A DNA stretch of 64,000 nt. It comes from Mucilaginibacter sp. (GTDB lineage: Bacteria > Bacteroidota > Bacteroidia > Sphingobacteriales > Sphingobacteriaceae). The notes below the pieces were generated by a model. The model was given only the letters and a program-made list of their open reading frames with translations. It searched no databases and was not told the DNA's origin. Made by a program: the position numbers and the translations under genes. Below, one piece after another: positions 1 through 50,151 of this stretch. Each line of letters opens with the position of its first letter. Position 1 is the first letter of the stretch. Location: positions 1 through 64,000 of the forward strand of contig NZ_JAQBOW010000108.1 of assembly GCF_028287845.1 (NCBI RefSeq). The letters are read 5' to 3'.

Positions 1-1115
1 ATGTCTGCTTTACACAACAGCATTAGTTCTTCAATATCATCGCCGGCCTCAAATAATAACCTGCGCACTGCCGAGTCTGTTACAATAGATTGCGACAATA
101 CTATTGGCCGCAAATGCAACTGAACCAGTTTTTGCACCAGTTTCATTTTTTCATTCAGCGGCAGTTTTAGCTGGGCAAATATTTTAGGCACCATGCGTGC
201 GCCCCGGTCCTCATGGCCATGAAACGTCCAGCCATGGCCGGCTTCAAAGCGTTTGGTGGCAGGTTTGGCAATGTCATGCAGTATTGCGGCCCAGCGTAGC
301 CAAAGGTCATCAGTCGTTTCGCAAATATTATCCAATACCTGCAAGGTATGGTAAAAATTGTCTTTATGTCCTTTACCATCAATATAATCAACACCATAAA
401 GTGCTACCATCTGCGGGAATATTTTATGCAACAGTCCGGTATCAAACAAATAATTAAAACCGATAGACGGTTTTGGCGATAATATGATCTTATTCAGTTC
501 GTCGGTAACGCGTTCTTGTGATACAATGCTAATACGATCAACATTATTTTTTATCGCATCTACAGCGATAGTATCAATTTTAAAATTCAACTGCGATGCA
601 AACCTGATGGCCCGCATCATCCTTAATGGATCATCAGAGAAAGTCTCGATAGGGTCGAGCGGTGTACGGATAAGTTTTGCTTCCAGATCCTTTATTCCGT
701 TAAAGGGATCTGTTAGCTGTCCAAACGCATCCGGATGCAAGGAAATAGCTAAAGCATTGATGGTAAAATCGCGGCGTTTCTGGTCGTCTTCTAAAGTGCC
801 GTTCTCTACAATTGGCTTGCGCGAATTTAAACGGTAGGATTCTTTACGCGCGCCAACAAATTCAACCTCAAGGTCCTGATATTTTAACGAGGCCGTGCCG
901 AAGTTTTTAAACACGGCCAGCTTTACTTTTAATTTTGCAGCTACAGCTTCGGCAAAGACAATGCCGTTGCCAATAATTACTATGTCTATATCTTTTGATG
1001 GTCGCTCTAAAAAGATATCGCGCACAAAACCGCCAATGGCATATACAGGCAAGTTTTGCTGGCCTGCAAGCTGCGATATAACGGTAAATACGTGATGTTT
1101 TAAATGTGCCTTCAT
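1..1115 (-). CDS. cca: CCA tRNA nucleotidyltransferase with HD domain, 3' end outside the window
   Basis: Adds or repairs the CCA end of tRNAs. The gene reads leftward from ATG at 1115 and runs off the left edge after 371 codons. Visible in order: the nucleotidyltransferase motif GGFVRD (residues 28-33) with the metal-binding pair DID (42-44), the RRDFTINAL motif (114-122), the DPLRMMRAIRFA segment (162-173) and an HD phosphohydrolase motif LHD (279-281) followed by FHGHE near residue 300. The nucleotidyltransferase plus HD layout fits the bacterial class II enzyme. It is preceded by an unusual repeat element (1159-1366) that separates it from the tsaC-like gene. The family is clear; CCA-adding versus a split CC/A-adding activity cannot be decided from sequence. 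Confidence 0.93.
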   Translation of the reverse strand, partial: MKAHLKHHVFTVISQLAGQQNLPVYAIGGFVRDIFLERPSKDIDIVIIGNGIVFAEAVAAKLKVKLAVFKNFGTASLKYQDLEVEFVGARKESYRLNSRKPIVENGTLEDDQKRRDFTINALAISLHPDAFGQLTDPFNGIKDLEAKLIRTPLDPIETFSDDPLRMMRAIRFASQLNFKIDTIAVDAIKNNVDRISIVSQERVTDELNKIILSPKPSIGFNYLFDTGLLHKIFPQMVALYGVDYIDGKGHKDNFYHTLQVLDNICETTDDLWLRWAAILHDIAKPATKRFEAGHGWTFHGHEDRGARMVPKIFAQLKLPLNEKMKLVQKLVQLHLRPIVLSQSIVTDSAVRRLLFEAGDDIEELMLLCKAD

Positions 1116-1384
1116 TATGTATCCTTTAAGGACGGGCAAAATTACAGAAATATGCCGCTTGTTTCACCGTGGGGTGAAACAAAATGAAACAAGTGAAACA
1201 AGATTTTGACTTAAAGTATTGTTTATGAGGTTGTTGCTAAAAAGTGATGAAACAAAATGTAACAACTTATTCGTCAGTAAAATTACACGTGGTGTTGATG
1301 TTTTTAATTGATAATCAAACAATTACAAATCGATGATTTTAGCGGTGATGAAACAAAATGAAACAATCATCGCCACCGTGTTAT
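1116..1384. other. Gene-free gap holding repeat element A
   Basis: 269 bases between the start of cca and the end of the tsaC-like gene. Apart from about 40 bases of cca leader it is filled by repeat element A (1159-1366), described separately. I see no ORF of note and no tRNA. Confidence 0.8.
1159..1366 (+). repeat. Dispersed noncoding element, copy A (inverted partner of 46442-46650)
   Basis: A 208-bp stretch that aligns along its whole length with the reverse complement of 46442-46650. It starts with a hairpin (arms 1159-1168 and 1173-1182, TTGTTTCACC / GGTGAAACAA, 4-nt loop). It then has three motif blocks built on AACAAAATGWAACAA (about 1178-1202, 1248-1265 and 1350-1366), separated by conserved spacers such as AACTTATTCGTCAGTA. 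The half-sites TGTTTCAC and GTGAAACA equal canonical parS half-sites but are 6 nt apart instead of adjacent. The function is unknown. A multi-site protein-binding element, a structured RNA or an immobile transposable relic are all possible. Confidence 0.85.
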
Positions 1385-2930: not shown

Positions 2931-3036
2931 CAGAGATTAGAGATTAAAGATTAGAGATTAGATGCAATGCATTAGAAGTAAGTGCTGCAAACTATGCTTA
3001 ACTAATCTCTAATATTTAACCTCTAATCTCTAAATT
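2931..3036. repeat. Word-repeat inverted gap (GATTAGA type)
   Basis: The gap between dapD and the GT9 gene holds several copies of AGATTAGAGATTA at 2934-2960 and the complementary TAATCTCTAAT / CCTCTAATCTCTAA at about 3000-3034, so the two flanks can pair around a ~40-nt middle. The same architecture recurs in other gaps of this window. It could act as a terminator or RNA-stability stem, but there is no T-run typical of an intrinsic terminator. Confidence 0.75.
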
Positions 3037-4382: not shown

Positions 4383-4406
4383 TCATACAGCGCTTTGTTG
4401 TTTTTG

Positions 4407-5039: not shown

Positions 5040-5185
5040 GATAGTGATTAGAGATTAGTTGATTAGAGATTGGTTATTAAAGATTAAAGAAACATAATGT
5101 TAAGTGACCCGTCTCTTTTGACAGTTCTATTATAATTTTAACCAGCCTAATCTCCAATTAACTAATCTCTAATTACTAATTTCGT
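5040..5185. repeat. Word-repeat inverted gap (GATTAGAGATT type)
   Basis: Between divergent engB and the VOC gene. The left side has GATTAGAGATTAGTTGATTA and relatives (5046-5088). The right side has the complement, CTAATCTCC...CTAATCTCTAATTAC (5150-5180). The middle holds GTGACCCGTCTCTTTTGAC with no obvious function. The layout matches the gap at 2931-3036. Confidence 0.7.
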
Positions 5186-6178: not shown

Positions 6179-6231
6179 TGACCACTTATAGCGCAGTCAA
6201 ACTATAAGGGCAAACACGTTAATTTTCTTAG

Positions 6232-6358
6232 CCCTCTTTCCGCGCAGCGAAGAGAGAATCGCCGCCGTGCATTGGCGTTAATGTCGCTTTATTAGTACTC
6301 ACCCGATCATCGCTAAGTCACTCGATCACCCTCTCGTCCGCAAGCGGTAAAGAGGGTT
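6232..6358 (+). repeat. MITE-like element, copy 1
   Basis: A 127-bp element with inverted ends (CCCTCTTTCCGC...GCGGTAAAGAGGGTT). It aligns with the reverse complement of 40383-40544: shared blocks are TGCATTGGCG, TACTCACCC, CATCGCTA and the right end CACCCTCTC-TCCGCAAGCGG. It lacks part of the left interior of copy 2. It has no ORF. It lies between the GNAT gene and menG. Confidence 0.8.
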
Positions 6359-6433
6359 GGGGTGGTGGTTTTTATTTTAATCCGTTTGCCTTAATCAAAC
6401 TATCAACTTAATCAATGGTTCATACAAATAAAT

Positions 6434-6441
6434 TATCTTTG
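6434..6441 (+). promoter_or_regulatory. Candidate -7 box (TATCTTTG) of menG
   Basis: TATCTTTG ends 10 nt before the menG ATG at 6452. It matches the Bacteroidota -7 consensus; no clear -33 TTG was seen. Confidence 0.45.
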
Positions 6442-6451
6442 CCCTTACAAT

Positions 6452-9536: not shown

Positions 9537-9538
9537 TG

Positions 9539-9682
9539 AGGATATGTAAATGTGCGGATATGCATATGTGTAAATGAATAAATCAAAGAACTAAGCTTTT
9601 TACTAATCCGGGATAAAAATGATAAGTACAGATTTGCAAATAAAATCATTCACTCAATCACTCATTCCATAATTCACTAATT
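9539..9682. repeat. Word-repeat gap (ATGTGNAAATG / CACTCAATCACTCATTC)
   Basis: The gap after the SDR gene holds a run of similar words GATATGTAAATGTGCGGATATG (two near-copies, 9540-9575) and later ATTCACTCAATCACTCATTC followed by ATTCACTAATT (9649-9682). These words are not reverse complements of one another, unlike the other gaps. No ORF or terminator is clear. Confidence 0.5.
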
Positions 9683-9689
9683 AAAAAAG

Positions 9690-11637: not shown

Positions 11638-11778
11638 GTTCATAGTCAATAGACCATAGACCATAGCATTTATTATAATACAAAAAACTATAGACCATCG
11701 ACTATGGTCTATAGACTATTTTATCATAACACAAAAAACTATTGACCATCGACTATGGTCCATGGACTATAAACTAAC
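11638..11778. repeat. Word-repeat inverted gap (GACCATAG / CTATGGTC) with 40-bp direct repeat
   Basis: The gap holds ATAGACCATAGACCATAG near 11650-11667, then two 40-bp near-identical direct copies (11680-11719 and 11731-11770, 3 mismatches). Each contains GACCATCGACTATGGTC, itself an inverted repeat. It lies between the CBS gene and nadK and leaves about 10 bases before the nadK start. Confidence 0.9.
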
Positions 11779-18256: not shown

Positions 18257-18305
18257 TTTTGATCGTTGATTTTTTTGATTAGGGGATTTCACTGATTCTT
18301 TACTT

Positions 18306-18341
18306 TTTAATCTTCAATAACCAATCTTTATTCCTAATCTC
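18306..18341 (+). repeat. 36-bp inverted repeat, left copy (flanks murI-nuoH)
   Basis: Exactly the reverse complement of 20428-20463. It lies inside a longer CTAATCTCTAATTAACCAATC-type word region (about 18297-18365). Confidence 0.95.
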
Positions 18342-18368
18342 TAATTAACCAATCTCTAATCATTAACA

Positions 18369-20409: not shown

Positions 20410-20427
20410 GTTAGTGATTAGTTATTG

Positions 20428-20463
20428 GAGATTAGGAATAAAGATTGGTTATTGAAGATTAAA
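20428..20463 (+). repeat. 36-bp inverted repeat, right copy
   Basis: Exact reverse complement of 18306-18341. It lies in the 126-nt nuoH-nuoI gap, inside the word region 20411-20470, followed by a degenerate CAGTGAAATCAAA-like repeat (20474-20540) that also resembles the sequence near 18278-18300. Confidence 0.95.
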
Positions 20464-20535
20464 GATTAATAATCGGTGAAATCAAAATAAAATAACAATA
20501 CAGGTAAAATCAGTGAAATCAAATAATAAAAATCA

Positions 20536-24045: not shown

Positions 24046-24190
24046 GATTTAGATATGAGATTTGAAACATTAGATTTGAGATTAATTGCCACATCGTTAT
24101 CGTGTAGAGCGGCTAATCTGGATATGTCTGAAATTTCAAAACGCCAATTCAGGATCTCATATCTCATGTCTCAAATCTCAAATCTCACCA
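24046..24190. repeat. Word-repeat inverted gap (GATTTGAGAT / ATCTCAAATC) inside the nuo operon
   Basis: Left: GATTTAGATATGAGATTTGAAACATTAGATTTGAGATTA (24048-24086). Right: ATCTCATATCTCATGTCTCAAATCTCAAATCTC (24154-24186). The flanks are complementary. It lies between nuoL and nuoM and probably folds as RNA in the operon transcript. Confidence 0.85.
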
Positions 24191-30847: not shown

Positions 30848-30976
30848 TGAGGTAAAAGGATTCTTAGAGGTAAAAGGAATAAAGGTAAAAGGCGAAAGGT
30901 GTTTAACATTTCGCCTTTTGTTATTTGTATTATTCCCAGAAAAACCTTTCCCCTTTCACCTTTTACCTTTTACCTC
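30848..30976. repeat. Word-repeat inverted gap (AGGTAAAAGG / CCTTTTACCT)
   Basis: Left: GAGGTAAAAGG repeated three times plus GGCGAAAGG (30849-30900). Right: CCTTTCCCCTTTCACC and TTTTACCTTTTACCT (30943-30976). The middle ACATTTCGCCTTTTG can pair with the GCGAAAGGTG side. It lies between convergent genes and may serve as a two-way terminator. Confidence 0.85.
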
Positions 30977-33414: not shown

Positions 33415-33496
33415 TTTTAGTCATTAGTCACTGGTCATTAGTAATTGTTAGATTTTTATAATTTACTGTTACTAATGACTAATGACACAATGACGA
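33415..33496. repeat. Word-repeat inverted gap (GTCATTAGTCA / TGACTAATGAC)
   Basis: TAGTCATTAGTCACTGGTCATTAGT (33418-33442) pairs with ACTAATGACTAATGACAC and AATGACGAATGAC (33472-33500), the second arm reaching the start codon of the next gene. Confidence 0.85.
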
Positions 33497-33973
33497 ATGA
33501 CAACTATGAAACCATCTTTCGATACCATCTTTATGAAACTGGCTACCGACCTGGCTCTGCGCTCGCATTGCGTAAAGGCTCATGTTGGTGCGGTTTTAAC
33601 ACGCGATACGCGTATTATATCCATAGGCTATAACGGCCCGCCTGCAGGCACGCATAACTGTGATGAAGAGTGGCCGGATGTTGGTTGTGCGCGCGACTCG
33701 AAGGGCAGTTGCTCGCTTGCTTTGCATGCCGAAGAGAACGCCATACTATACGCCGTTAAAAGCGGTGCCAAGCTGGAAGGTGCTACGTTGTATACAACAT
33801 TGTCTCCGTGTATAGCCTGTGCACGGTTAATATTCTCTGCCGGTATTAAACAAGTTTTTTTTAATAAATCATACGCCCAATACAAAGGCATAGCCAGCGA
33901 TGAAGGGGTTGATTTTTTAAATAAGTTTGGGGTGCCTACGGTGAGGCTGTCCGAACACGATTCGATAGATTAA
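33497..33973 (+). CDS. dCMP deaminase (ComEB family)
   Basis: Zinc-dependent deoxycytidylate deaminase that supplies dUMP for thymidylate. 158 aa. The zinc and catalytic site is complete: HAEENAI (His and catalytic Glu) and SPCIACA (two Cys). The ISIGYNGPPAGTHNC segment with its extra cysteine is typical of dCMP deaminases. A second ATG at 33506 would trim three residues. Confidence 0.9.
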   Translation: MTTMKPSFDTIFMKLATDLALRSHCVKAHVGAVLTRDTRIISIGYNGPPAGTHNCDEEWPDVGCARDSKGSCSLALHAEENAILYAVKSGAKLEGATLYTTLSPCIACARLIFSAGIKQVFFNKSYAQYKGIASDEGVDFLNKFGVPTVRLSEHDSID

Positions 33974-39860: not shown

Positions 39861-40423
39861 TTTAAGGTGCCTTTTATCGTATACGTATTGGCCCCCAGCA
39901 AACGTACTTTCTGATATTTTTGTATGATATAAAGTGAATCAGGGAAATAGCTTAGTTTTTCGTTGGTTTGATACAGTATGTTTTCAGTACGGTTATAGAT
40001 CAATATCCATTTAACTTTATCGGCCTGTTTATTAATAACTATCAACTGCGTTTTAAGATCGATAGTCTTTGCACGGTAAATGATGGAGGCGCCGTTGGTT
40101 TGAATATTGTAACTATCCCGCCACGCAGGTTTGTTAATGTCTGATTCGCTGAATGAGCTTAACTCAAGTCCCCAGTTGCTGATGTGTACCTTCTTTGTTT
40201 CGGTAATACCGTTGTGAGTAACGGTTTTGTTGGTAAGATGATTTAGCTTAGTAAGGCGCAAACTATCAGCATGAAAGTAACCCTTTATATTGAAAAATTT
40301 AACATCGCTTTTTTCCGTATCTGGTTTGCATGATGGGAGAAGATATGTAAAAGATATTGCAAATAAATAAAAGAGAATTTTTAACCCTCTTTCCCGCTTG
40401 CGGAAGAGAGGGTCGACAAGCAT
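39857..40423 (-). CDS. Putative lipoprotein whose 5' end lies in a MITE-like element
   Basis: Probably 188 aa from ATG 40423. The mature part (from about residue 33) is a beta-rich domain of unknown function (KGYFHADSLRLTKLNHLTN... IKGTLN). A lipobox-like ...FTYLLPSC ends the signal. The codons just before the hydrophobic core (LKILFYLFAIS) are TTA AAA, not a start. The nearest in-frame ATG lies inside the MITE-like copy (40383-40544) and gives an n-region MLVDPLFRKRERG, basic as a signal peptide needs. A longer frame to 40588 would overlap gpmI and run through the whole element. The gene may alternatively be broken by the insertion. Confidence 0.6.
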   Translation of the reverse strand: MLVDPLFRKRERGLKILFYLFAISFTYLLPSCKPDTEKSDVKFFNIKGYFHADSLRLTKLNHLTNKTVTHNGITETKKVHISNWGLELSSFSESDINKPAWRDSYNIQTNGASIIYRAKTIDLKTQLIVINKQADKVKWILIYNRTENILYQTNEKLSYFPDSLYIIQKYQKVRLLGANTYTIKGTLN

Positions 40424-40544
40424 AGCGATGTCTGGGTGAGTAAACGTTCGCCAATGCAATAACGCTATTGGTGCATTATTAATCCACTCACCCGGTCTTT
40501 GCTTCGCCCGACCACCCTCTCTTCGGCAAACCGTAAAGAGGGTT
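40383..40544 (-). repeat. MITE-like element, copy 2
   Basis: 162 bp with inverted ends AACCCTCTTTCCCGC / GTAAAGAGGGTTT and an inner pair of sub-ends (GGAAGAGAGGGTCG / CGACCACCCTCTCTTC). It aligns with 6232-6358 after reverse complementing. It lies between gpmI and the hydrophobic core of the lipoprotein gene. It encodes no transposase. Confidence 0.85.
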
Positions 40545-42092: not shown

Positions 42093-42149
42093 AGTGCAAA
42101 TATAAAGGTGATGGGGGATAGATTATAATTAATTTGTTAGAACGCGCGG

Positions 42150-42189
42150 TTACTCACCCCGACTACGCTTCGCTGGTCGGGGTGAGTAA
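42150..42189. repeat. Strong hairpin TTACTCACCCCGAC ... GTCGGGGTGAGTAA
   Basis: 14-bp perfect arms (42150-42163, 42176-42189) around a 12-nt middle. The TACTCACCC core also occurs in the MITE-like elements, so it may be a shortened relative of them. Located between gpmI and the MetX-like gene. Confidence 0.9.
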
Positions 42190-42287
42190 TCGCCGATTTG
42201 AATTTAATAAACCCACGCTTGCATGAACTTATTCTTTTATATAGATTTATCCAATCAATTATCCGTACCATACAGTATTTATTTTTC

Positions 42288-43322: not shown

Positions 43323-43374
43323 GGGGAGTAATTATTGCTTTACTGGAAATAACATTGATTAAGGGTTTGAATAC

Positions 43375-43573
43375 GGGGATTGCAAATCCCCTGAAAAGTT
43401 AGTCCGGGATTATAAATCCGGACTAACAGGGTTATATCGATATTTACCCTTAACGGTAGGAGTATTCGAAAGATTTGTGTTAGTCCGAATTTATAATCCC
43501 GGACTTGAATAGTTGCGGATTTGTAATCCGCTTAAGGCATTAAGTTAACCGAGGATTGCAAACCCGGACTAAC
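43375..43573. repeat. REP-like palindrome cluster (GTTAGTCCGG / GGATTtgtAATCC types)
   Basis: Perfect short palindromes: GGGGATT-gca-AATCCCC (43375-43391), GTTAGTCCGG...CCGGACTAAC (43398-43427, 10-bp arms), GCGGATT-tgt-AATCCGC (43515-43531). Related half copies occur at 43480-43506 and 43550-43572. The 44-bp direct repeat at 43432-43475 lies inside the cluster. Confidence 0.9.
43432..43475 (+). repeat. 44-bp direct repeat, left copy
   Basis: Matches 44437-44480 at 41 of 44 positions, same orientation, 1005 bp apart. Together they bracket the SGNH lipoprotein gene. Confidence 0.93.
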
Positions 43574-43630
43574 ATGAAAAAGGGTGATAAGGTAGAAAAA
43601 GAAAAGACGAAACCAAAGCCTAAAAAGTAA
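43574..43630 (+). CDS. Possible 18-aa lysine-rich micro-ORF
   Basis: ATG 43574 to TAA 43630 encodes MKKGDKVEKEKTKPKPKK. It directly follows the last palindrome of the REP cluster and precedes the stem at 43651. It may be accidental; peptides this basic are sometimes RNA-binding. No homologue known to me. Confidence 0.2.
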   Translation: MKKGDKVEKEKTKPKPKK

Positions 43631-43650
43631 CTGTATTTATTTATACATTT

Positions 43651-43676
43651 AAGCCGCCTAACAAGTGGCTTTTTTT
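43651..43676 (+). terminator. Small terminator-like stem before the SGNH gene
   Basis: AAGCC (43651-43655) pairs with GGCTT (43667-43671), followed by T's to 43676. The stem is short; its T-run overlaps the 5' region of the next gene's longer frame, which supports the shorter GTG start at 43692. Confidence 0.5.
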
Positions 43677-46253: not shown

Positions 46254-46275
46254 CGTGAGTTTGGGATAAGCTCTA

Positions 46276-46397
46276 TGTCATTTCGATACAAGGTACGAGT
46301 GAGAAATCTTATACACCATACGATATTGCCGTACAAAGCGTATAAGATTTCTCTTTCACCCCCAACACACAACCGCCCCGGCTCCATCGAAATGACA
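46276..46397. repeat. 122-bp nested palindromic element
   Basis: Outer inverted ends TGTCATTTCGA (46276-46286) / TCGAAATGACA (46387-46397). Inner perfect arms GAGAAATCTTATAC (46301-46314) / GTATAAGATTTCTC (46340-46353). Similar 'GTCATTTCGA...AGAAATC' elements are, as I know them, common in Bacteroidota; they resemble non-autonomous transposable elements or REP units. Confidence 0.88.
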
Positions 46398-46441
46398 ATT
46401 TTATTGATTTATACTATTTAAGCTAAAAAGAAACAGAAATG

Positions 46442-46650
46442 TTGTTTCATTTTGTTACACCACTGCTAAATATTCTTTTTTGTAATTTATTGATAATCAG
46501 AAATATAATTAAAAATTACGCATAAAAATACTGACGAATAAGTTGTTACATTTTGTTACATCACTTTTTCGTATTTTGTTTATTTTCAATAGGTTAAGTC
46601 GAAATCTTGTTACACTTGTTACATTTTGTTACACATTTTGGTGTAACAAA
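46442..46650 (-). repeat. Dispersed noncoding element, copy B
   Basis: Reverse complement aligns throughout with 1159-1366. Blocks AACAAGTG[A/T]AACAAGATTT, AAAGTGATG[A/T]AACAAAATG and AACTTATTCGTCAGTA are shared, as is TTTAGC[G/A]GTG. Its hairpin (46625-46634 / 46641-46650, TTTGTTACAC / GTGTAACAAA) replaces the TTTCAC of copy A by TTACAC on both arms. It ends 2 nt from the pabB stop codon. Confidence 0.85.
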
Positions 46651-46651
46651 A

Positions 46652-50070: not shown

Positions 50071-50151
50071 AGGATGCAAGAATCCGGAGCTAAGATAAGC
50101 CATACAGGAAATCAAAAAGGCACTCATGTATCTTGATTCCTGCATCCTGAC
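50071..50151. repeat. Inverted gap repeat CAGGATGCA-AGAATC / GATTCC-TGCATCCTG
   Basis: CTCAGGATGCAAGAATC...AGCTAAGATA (50071-50097) pairs with TATCTTGATTCCTGCATCCTGA (50129-50150). It lies between fur and relA/spoT, another case of the word-repeat architecture. Confidence 0.85.

Follow-up and report, generated by a model that had tools for sequence, protein, structure and literature searches.

Intergenic hairpins with arms of seven-nucleotide words in Mucilaginibacter and other Bacteroidota

Word hairpins between the genes of the window

The window, i.e. the whole stretch of DNA analysed here, is a 64-kb part of contig C38 in the draft genome G000 (3.74 Mb), whose nearest named relatives by dapD are Mucilaginibacter kameinonensis (89%) and M. 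aurantiaciroseus (88%). Inverted and tandem repeats were listed in its intergenic gaps, and 39 gaps were set against dinucleotide shuffles. A common layout is found in six gaps (2931-3036, 5040-5185, 11638-11778, 24046-24190, 30848-30976 and 33415-33496): a tandemly repeated word on the left faces its reverse complement on the right, the arms being ~16-50 nt long and built of 7-nt units (periods 7, 14 and 15, the last as 7+8). The inverted matches reach z-scores of 6.1 to 18.8 over dinucleotide shuffles, and RNA folding gave z-scores of -3.2 to -8.4 in the seven gaps folded. The original prediction had listed nine gaps with a short word in one half and its inverse in the other; six of them carry this structure, whereas those at 18297 and 20411 hold single arms and the one at 50071 a weak word array. 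Its statement that the words differ from gap to gap under a constant plan holds, and the shared period of 7 is added here: GATTAGA, GACCATA, GATTTGA, GGTAAAA and TTAGTCA are phases of 7-nt units. The features are as follows:

2932..2961, forward strand: 5' arm of GATTAGA x4 units (30 nt, 93% complementary to 3002-3031; folding z -7.0 and -8.4)
3002..3031, forward strand: 3' arm of CTAATCT units, partner of 2932..2961
5042..5090, forward strand: 5' arm of GATTAGA words, in a divergent gap beside an engB-like GTPase gene
5091..5148, forward strand: loop of the 5031 element; on the reverse strand, the sequence beside the arm is CTTAACATTATGTTTCT
5149..5178, forward strand: 3' arm of the 5042 element, 90% complementary over 30 nt
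9537..9689, no strand assigned: probable hybrid gap beyond the nine of the original prediction, GATATGC-type (GATATGCAAATGTGC) on the left and TTCACTC-type (TTCACTCAATCACTC) on the right (by eye, z not raised)
11641..11666, forward strand: 5' arm of GACCATA words; another word family (GTTCATTA) at the sister genome locus
11669..11770, forward strand: duplicated 51-nt unit with two C-word arms (period 51, 2 copies)
18318..18360, forward strand: single C-word arm, upstream of an Asp/Glu racemase-family gene
20416..20469, forward strand: single G-word arm, between nuoH and nuoI
24051..24082, forward strand: 5' arm of GATTTGA/GATATGA words, between nuoL and nuoM
24154..24187, forward strand: 3' arm of the nuoL-nuoM element, paired with 24051..24082
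30867..30903, forward strand: 5' arm of AGGTAAA words, in a convergent gap
30940..30976, forward strand: 3' arm of ACCTTTT words, partner of 30867..30903
33417..33446, forward strand: 5' arm of TTAGTCA words
33471..33501, forward strand: 3' arm of ACTAATG words, partner of 33417..33446
50071..50151, no strand assigned: weak short member, AGGATGC-AAGAATC with an inverted partner (about two units per arm)

The element at 2932-3031 sits between dapD and a glycosyltransferase-9 gene. The two single arms, in gaps 18297-18365 and 20411-20470, repeat one another in inverted orientation; they are identical over 36 nt, lie ~2 kb apart and bracket two genes, the racemase-family gene and nuoH. Gap 50071-50151 has a stem z-score of 5.6 and is weak as a word array. 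Rfam gave no match above the gathering score in the 64-kb window. Overall, elements are ~60-210 nt long and fall into several families with arm words of 7 nt, sometimes 8 nt.

The junction at 4383/4407, near the 5031 element, marks a rearrangement: its two sides lie ~46 kb apart in G053, the closest genome found to G000. Elsewhere, GTGAAACAA / TGTTACA repeats occupy long gaps (window 838-1384 and 46254-46651; L214:16053-16377), and a related stretch occurs elsewhere in G053.

Period, distribution and polarity

Of the genus, 149 genomes were searched; the sample used for the gap counts comprised 1.66 Mb with 905 gaps, its nearest named relatives being Mucilaginibacter. Gene calls behind the gap counts came from a simple ORF finder; a two-array detector was applied to gaps only, and a separate scan covered the whole sequence. 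Sixteen of the genus stretches were centred on dapD, a locus that is often filled, and those of G013, G010, G046, G034, G011 and G026 were placed blindly. The 400 kb of G000 beyond the window are contigs chosen by matches to GATTAGAGATTAG, so that the sample from this genome is biased and its element density inflated (464 kb gave twenty detections); in 220 kb of G010 no hairpin was found.

Word hairpins between genes are real and far above chance. In the window, period-7 hairpins were detected in 6 of 38 gaps and in none of 100 dinucleotide-shuffled windows; in the genus sample there were 39 against a mean of 0.15 per shuffle (20 shuffles), and four of period 8 against 0.1 per shuffle. Among the 905 gaps, the numbers for periods 5 to 13 were 0, 1, 39, 4, 2, 1, 1, 0 and 0. 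Chance, or the ordinary composition of AT-rich gaps, is refuted by these shuffle and period controls and retains a practically negligible probability. Merging periods 7 and 8 gave 42 genus hairpins, which form the basis of the polarity and composition counts below. Single arrays also favour 7-nt units over other lengths, with a smaller excess than paired arms. In the whole-sequence scan, 38 of 39 listed hairpins fell outside genes, and the arms lie close to them (median distances of 5.5 and 7 nt). The structures extend beyond the genus: 16 named loci from Mucilaginibacter, Pedobacter and relatives (321 kb) yielded nine hairpins of period 7 or 8, and 64 other Bacteroidota loci (1.05 Mb) yielded seven, with periods 11 and 13 represented once each.

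The arms have a polarity. Each of the 42 merged hairpins of the genus has a 5' arm richer in G and a 3' arm richer in C, irrespective of whether the gap is tandem (28/28), convergent (10/10) or divergent (4/4). The named Bacteroidota follow with 9/9 and 6/7, i.e. 57 of 58 cases overall; these cases are partly dependent, the 42 genus hairpins representing ~35 distinct loci, with the dapD gap counted in six genomes and 5031 and 11638 in two each, and the dapD gap recurs among the named genomes. Other inverted repeats of the same genomes are divided between G-first (154), C-first (132) and ties (46), and the strongly skewed ones among them between 23 G-first and 22 C-first. Unpaired arrays conform less strictly, G-words lying on the left side or C-words on the right side in 83 of 101 genus cases and 36 of 48 cases from named genomes. 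Start-codon avoidance ahead of genes was considered as a cause of the polarity and rejected, convergent gaps being equally G-first (10/10). The polarity sharply constrains any mechanism.

A template-switching model, in which hairpins are made and mended during strand switching, predicts that the 5' side has more G than C and more U than A (PMC8794818, as described in excerpts of that paper). Pooled 5' arms consist of 40% A, 30% T, 23.5% G and 6.5% C. Contrary to the second half of the prediction, A exceeds T in 30 of the 42 hairpins (T exceeds A in 11).

Turnover at fixed loci and copying between loci

In orthologous gaps the words differ between species while the layout is kept. After dapD (30 loci, of which 23 were parsed and 7 dropped), a period-7 hairpin is detectable in 14 of the 23 genomes, with words that include GATTAGA, GATATGA, GTTTTGA and AAGTCAT; others have 8-nt or degenerate words and, in a few cases, plain stem-loops (by eye). 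The same picture is found in the gap before the NAD-kinase gene (hairpins detected in 17/30 genomes) and in the engB-like gap (9/30); between nuoL and nuoM, hairpins were detected in 6/30. Across four loci, the 6-mers of arms from the same locus overlap with a mean Jaccard index of 0.118 (278 pairs), compared with 0.025 for different loci of different genomes (742 pairs); 19% of the same-locus pairs have no 6-mer in common. Since same-locus arms are more alike than random pairs, plain descent accounts for some of the pattern, which as a whole is descent plus heavy turnover. An indel spectrum over the orthologous gaps of three loci was set aside, as its filter admitted forced alignments. The turnover of words under a constant layout was what the original prediction expected of the same locus, and its shuffled control came out empty; thus, neither fixed words at fixed loci nor an equal yield from shuffled sequence, either of which would have spoken against it, was found (the comparison being between species, not strains).

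Upstream of engB-like orthologues, a palindrome, TGTTTAAACA, recurs in many genus members (for example L288, L289, L299 and L301; by eye).

The nuoL-nuoM junction was read in 26 of 30 loci (G000 included; four were without the search motif). The gap measures 0-16 nt in 10 genomes and ~87-211 nt in 16, the lengths being approximate because five of the 26 downstream starts were set a few nucleotides before the likely ATG. Filled gaps mostly have G-words first and C-words last (by eye), the words vary by lineage (GATATGA, AAGAATC, AAGGTAA and others), and the stop codon often falls within the first word. The elements here lie inside one run of complex I subunit genes from nuoH to nuoN, which is probably transcribed as one operon; if so, a strong terminator at this position would be costly.

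These junctions bear on the proposal that selection maintains an RNA stem-loop at gene ends, for termination or mRNA protection, while the words drift freely. The strong folds agree with it, as do a plain stem-loop after dapD in G023, G057 and L085 (by eye) and the lower frequency of hairpins in divergent gaps (3/159 gaps of 70-350 nt, compared with 35/480 others; Fisher p 0.011). Against it stand the elements within the nuo run, the 10 of 26 genomes without any nuoL-nuoM element, and a complete terminator-like hairpin inside the loop of L205:16724-16941 (by eye). Moreover, a scan of positions 1-40000 (loops of 3-8 nt) placed a terminator at the arms in one of eight element gaps, 11638; in gap 18203, the same stem-plus-T-run scan placed the terminator site outside the arm. 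Hybrid gaps with two non-matching words (by eye) and lone arms persist as well. Selection for stems, one of the processes originally suggested, is therefore doubtful, and as a full account we consider it improbable.

The comparison with G053 bears on the rate of change. Eleven plain gaps (gap 9537-9689, with indels of 31 and 8 nt, was entered among them) differ by 4.4% substitutions (0-9.9% each) and six indels of at least 5 nt, and seven element gaps by 11.4% and 12 such indels. The higher mean of the element gaps is due to two rebuilt gaps with forced alignments; the other five differ by 4.5-9.2%, within the range of plain gaps. In one clear whole-unit case, the 5031 element is longer in G053 by 35 nt, i.e. 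five 7-nt words; indels of at least 5 nt in element gaps measure 5, 6, 8, 11, 15, 16 and 18 nt in addition to this 35-nt one. In gap 11638 the word family itself differs between the two genomes, while the flanks are 91-98% identical (eight 100-nt bins), and gap 24042 is largely rebuilt. The G000 word at 11638 is also present there in G123 and G110, and the G053 word is common to G097, G038 and G041 (both by eye). Large word changes thus look like element replacement rather than slow drift, on the basis of few cases.

Local slippage and template switching within each gap, independent of other loci, would account for the 35-nt expansion in G053. It is in line with the slippage tendency of bacterial heptanucleotides (excerpts of PMC4679880, citing Mrazek 2007) and with the ability of template switching to make and mend hairpins and to place G on the 5' side (PMC8794818, likewise in excerpts). 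The excess of A over T in most 5' arms argues against it, as does the swap of a word family between unchanged flanks, and loops that are common to several loci speak against it as a complete account. As the sole process it appears very unlikely.

Such common loops are found in the GATTAG family, the one family for which they were shown (up to 36 pairs, each against the maximum of 200 shuffles, so that the weakest matches could be due to chance). Two G000 loci on separate contigs and one G053 locus have the loop in common, with scores of 62, 64 and 43, where shuffles reach 18-20 at most. Part of it recurs at two further loci, one in G000 and one in G053, and the 5031 element of the window has 14-18 nt of it beside the arm (scores 23-26; shuffle maxima 19-23). 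The amplified word in the 3' arms of these loop-sharing elements varies (TTCAATC at one, TCTAATC at a second). Whole hairpins also match at non-orthologous places. The element at G000:C133 has a duplicated layout similar to that of gap 11638 (compared without a shuffle control); this likeness and the common loops indicate that copying between loci takes part. Thus, several word families exist and at least one spreads. The original prediction of a generating process as opposed to one spreading element is borne out as far as turnover is concerned; its second half was too strong, given that GATTAG loops are shared between different loci of one genome.

MITE- or REP-like non-autonomous transposon families, with a transposase that recognises the hairpin and heptamers that are a secondary decoration by slippage, would explain these shared loops and the hairpin matches at non-orthologous places, as well as the nuoL-nuoM junctions that are either empty or filled; recognition of the ends would also give a fixed polarity. 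Nevertheless, no target-site duplication was seen by eye at the nuoL-nuoM junction among the 26 genomes (which include no gain between very close genomes), and hairpin ends differ between word families, with no common terminal sequence by eye. Paired word arms were, furthermore, found beside none of 23 Y1/RAYT loci. Taken together, transposition of this kind seems rather unlikely.

Candidate enzymes, known repeats and interpretation

RAYT/Y1 transposases were rejected as mobilisers on the basis of these 23 loci, from six genomes; the Y1/RAYT group was the one searched among transposases, and it yielded no mobilising enzyme for the word hairpins. A lone weak array lies beside four of the loci (L330, L333, L338 and L349), and many of the 19 loci inspected by eye carry other, GC-rich hairpins. 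Of these four, the one that most resembles a word array is at L333 (G041), with 8-nt units of GAATGATT type in the gap left of the Y1 transposase gene. A reverse transcriptase was likewise rejected as the generator: RVT_1 occurs in three of eight genomes only, with no match in G053, G041, G013, G046 and G011, all of which bear elements. Ku is present in all eight genus genomes, which speaks neither for nor against an origin by end joining.

SbcD is part of a nuclease that acts on palindromes (PMC3315005, excerpts). It was found above the NCBIfam cut-off in none of eight genus genomes (G000, G053, G041, G013, G010, G046, G034 and G011), five of which have partial matches below the cut-off. In a phylum-wide sample of 70 genomes (G000 in the sample), 27 have a match above it; since the other 43 are without it as well, the absence is not special to the genus. 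The 19 SbcD-positive genomes inspected (397 kb, 20 stretches, 192 gaps) contained one hairpin, compared with 42 in the 1.66 Mb of the genus. A tie between SbcD absence and hairpin abundance is no more than a lead, as relatedness confounds the comparison.

In cyanobacteria, short tandemly repeated repetitive (STRR) sequences consist of degenerate 7-nt units, and in the P6b hairpins of the tRNA-Leu intron such arms face each other and pair; they are known from one intron locus or as one-sided arrays, unlike the scattered, many-worded facing arms described here. Repeats of the dispersed kind are normally identified by their sequence, whereas here the layout is kept and the sequence exchanged; a sequence-based repeat finder would therefore tend to split one phenomenon into many.

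Arrays of the heptanucleotide TAACTGA have been described in Beggiatoaceae, Cyanobacteria and some Bacteroidetes, often near start codons and, in one strain comparison, with indels mostly in 7-nt steps (PMC4679880). The word hairpins resemble these simple sequence repeats in their intergenic, tandem 7-nt units and strain-specific change; they differ in that the excerpts describe one direct-repeat word and a single indirect repeat in the BOGUAY genome, whereas the elements here have many words, paired inverted arms, G-first polarity and loci that switch from one word family to another. REP elements are likewise short dispersed extragenic palindromes, mostly in tandem or convergent gaps; as described in excerpts of PMC3733652, they are 20-40 bp long with mostly GTAG or CGTC tags, and the present elements are longer and built of words. 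A further difference from the REP/RAYT system is the absence of paired word arms beside all 23 Y1/RAYT genes examined. The minisatellite MITE of Porphyromonas gingivalis, also from Bacteroidota, combines inverted repeats and tandem units in a dispersed element (excerpts of PMC4596501); here, by contrast, the tandem units make up the inverted arms, and the words differ by locus. Dispersed copies with common sequence beyond the repeat unit, a MITE-like trait, were found in the GATTAG family only. Judged by titles and abstract openings, no description of paired heptamer-word hairpins in Bacteroidota was found in the open-licence literature. The exchange of words under a constant layout, with the G-rich arm almost always first, suggests a class of small dispersed repeats that has received little description.

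The reading that we favour, at roughly even confidence, is that of dispersed palindromic repeats with heptamer arms, which are rewritten through slippage and through copying from one element to another and are tolerated at gene junctions. These elements could operate in the following manner: Arms would grow and shrink by slippage, with a preference for 7-nt steps. Template switching may copy one arm onto the other and thereby rewrite the element; a hairpin's own arm is its best match in only 17 of 42 cases and among the top three in 28, which does not bear out such copying and is not decisive for pairing specific to the two arms beyond the word. Ectopic copying between elements, possibly primed by words that they have in common, would spread words as local dialects. 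Most elements would be tolerated passengers of gene junctions and not selected terminators. A wider version is considered with lower confidence: Bacteroidota-wide palindromes with rewritable 7-nt arrays, which would be united by a plan rather than by sequence (two facing arrays, G-rich arm first, on either strand), would be made or copied by a strand-asymmetric activity, and may be tolerated where no SbcCD is present to cleave hairpins. Given the dense sampling of species in the genus, origin, movement and rewriting of the palindromes are directly testable.

Several other repeats were observed alongside. Long inverted repeats of two types, GTCATTGCGAGG..CGAAGCAATCTC and GTCATTCTGAGC..GAAGAATCT, are dispersed over L185, L077, L167, L059, L200 and others. 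GC-rich stretches with inverted parts, alike by eye, are located at window 6179-6451 (including 181 nt missing from G053), 40383-40544 and 42093-42197 and at L215:384-806, the last two matching across 35 nt. Finally, AGTCCGGGATTATAAATCC hairpins at window 43323-43664 match those flanking the Y1/RAYT gene at G000:C149 (L343) and therefore look like ordinary REPs.
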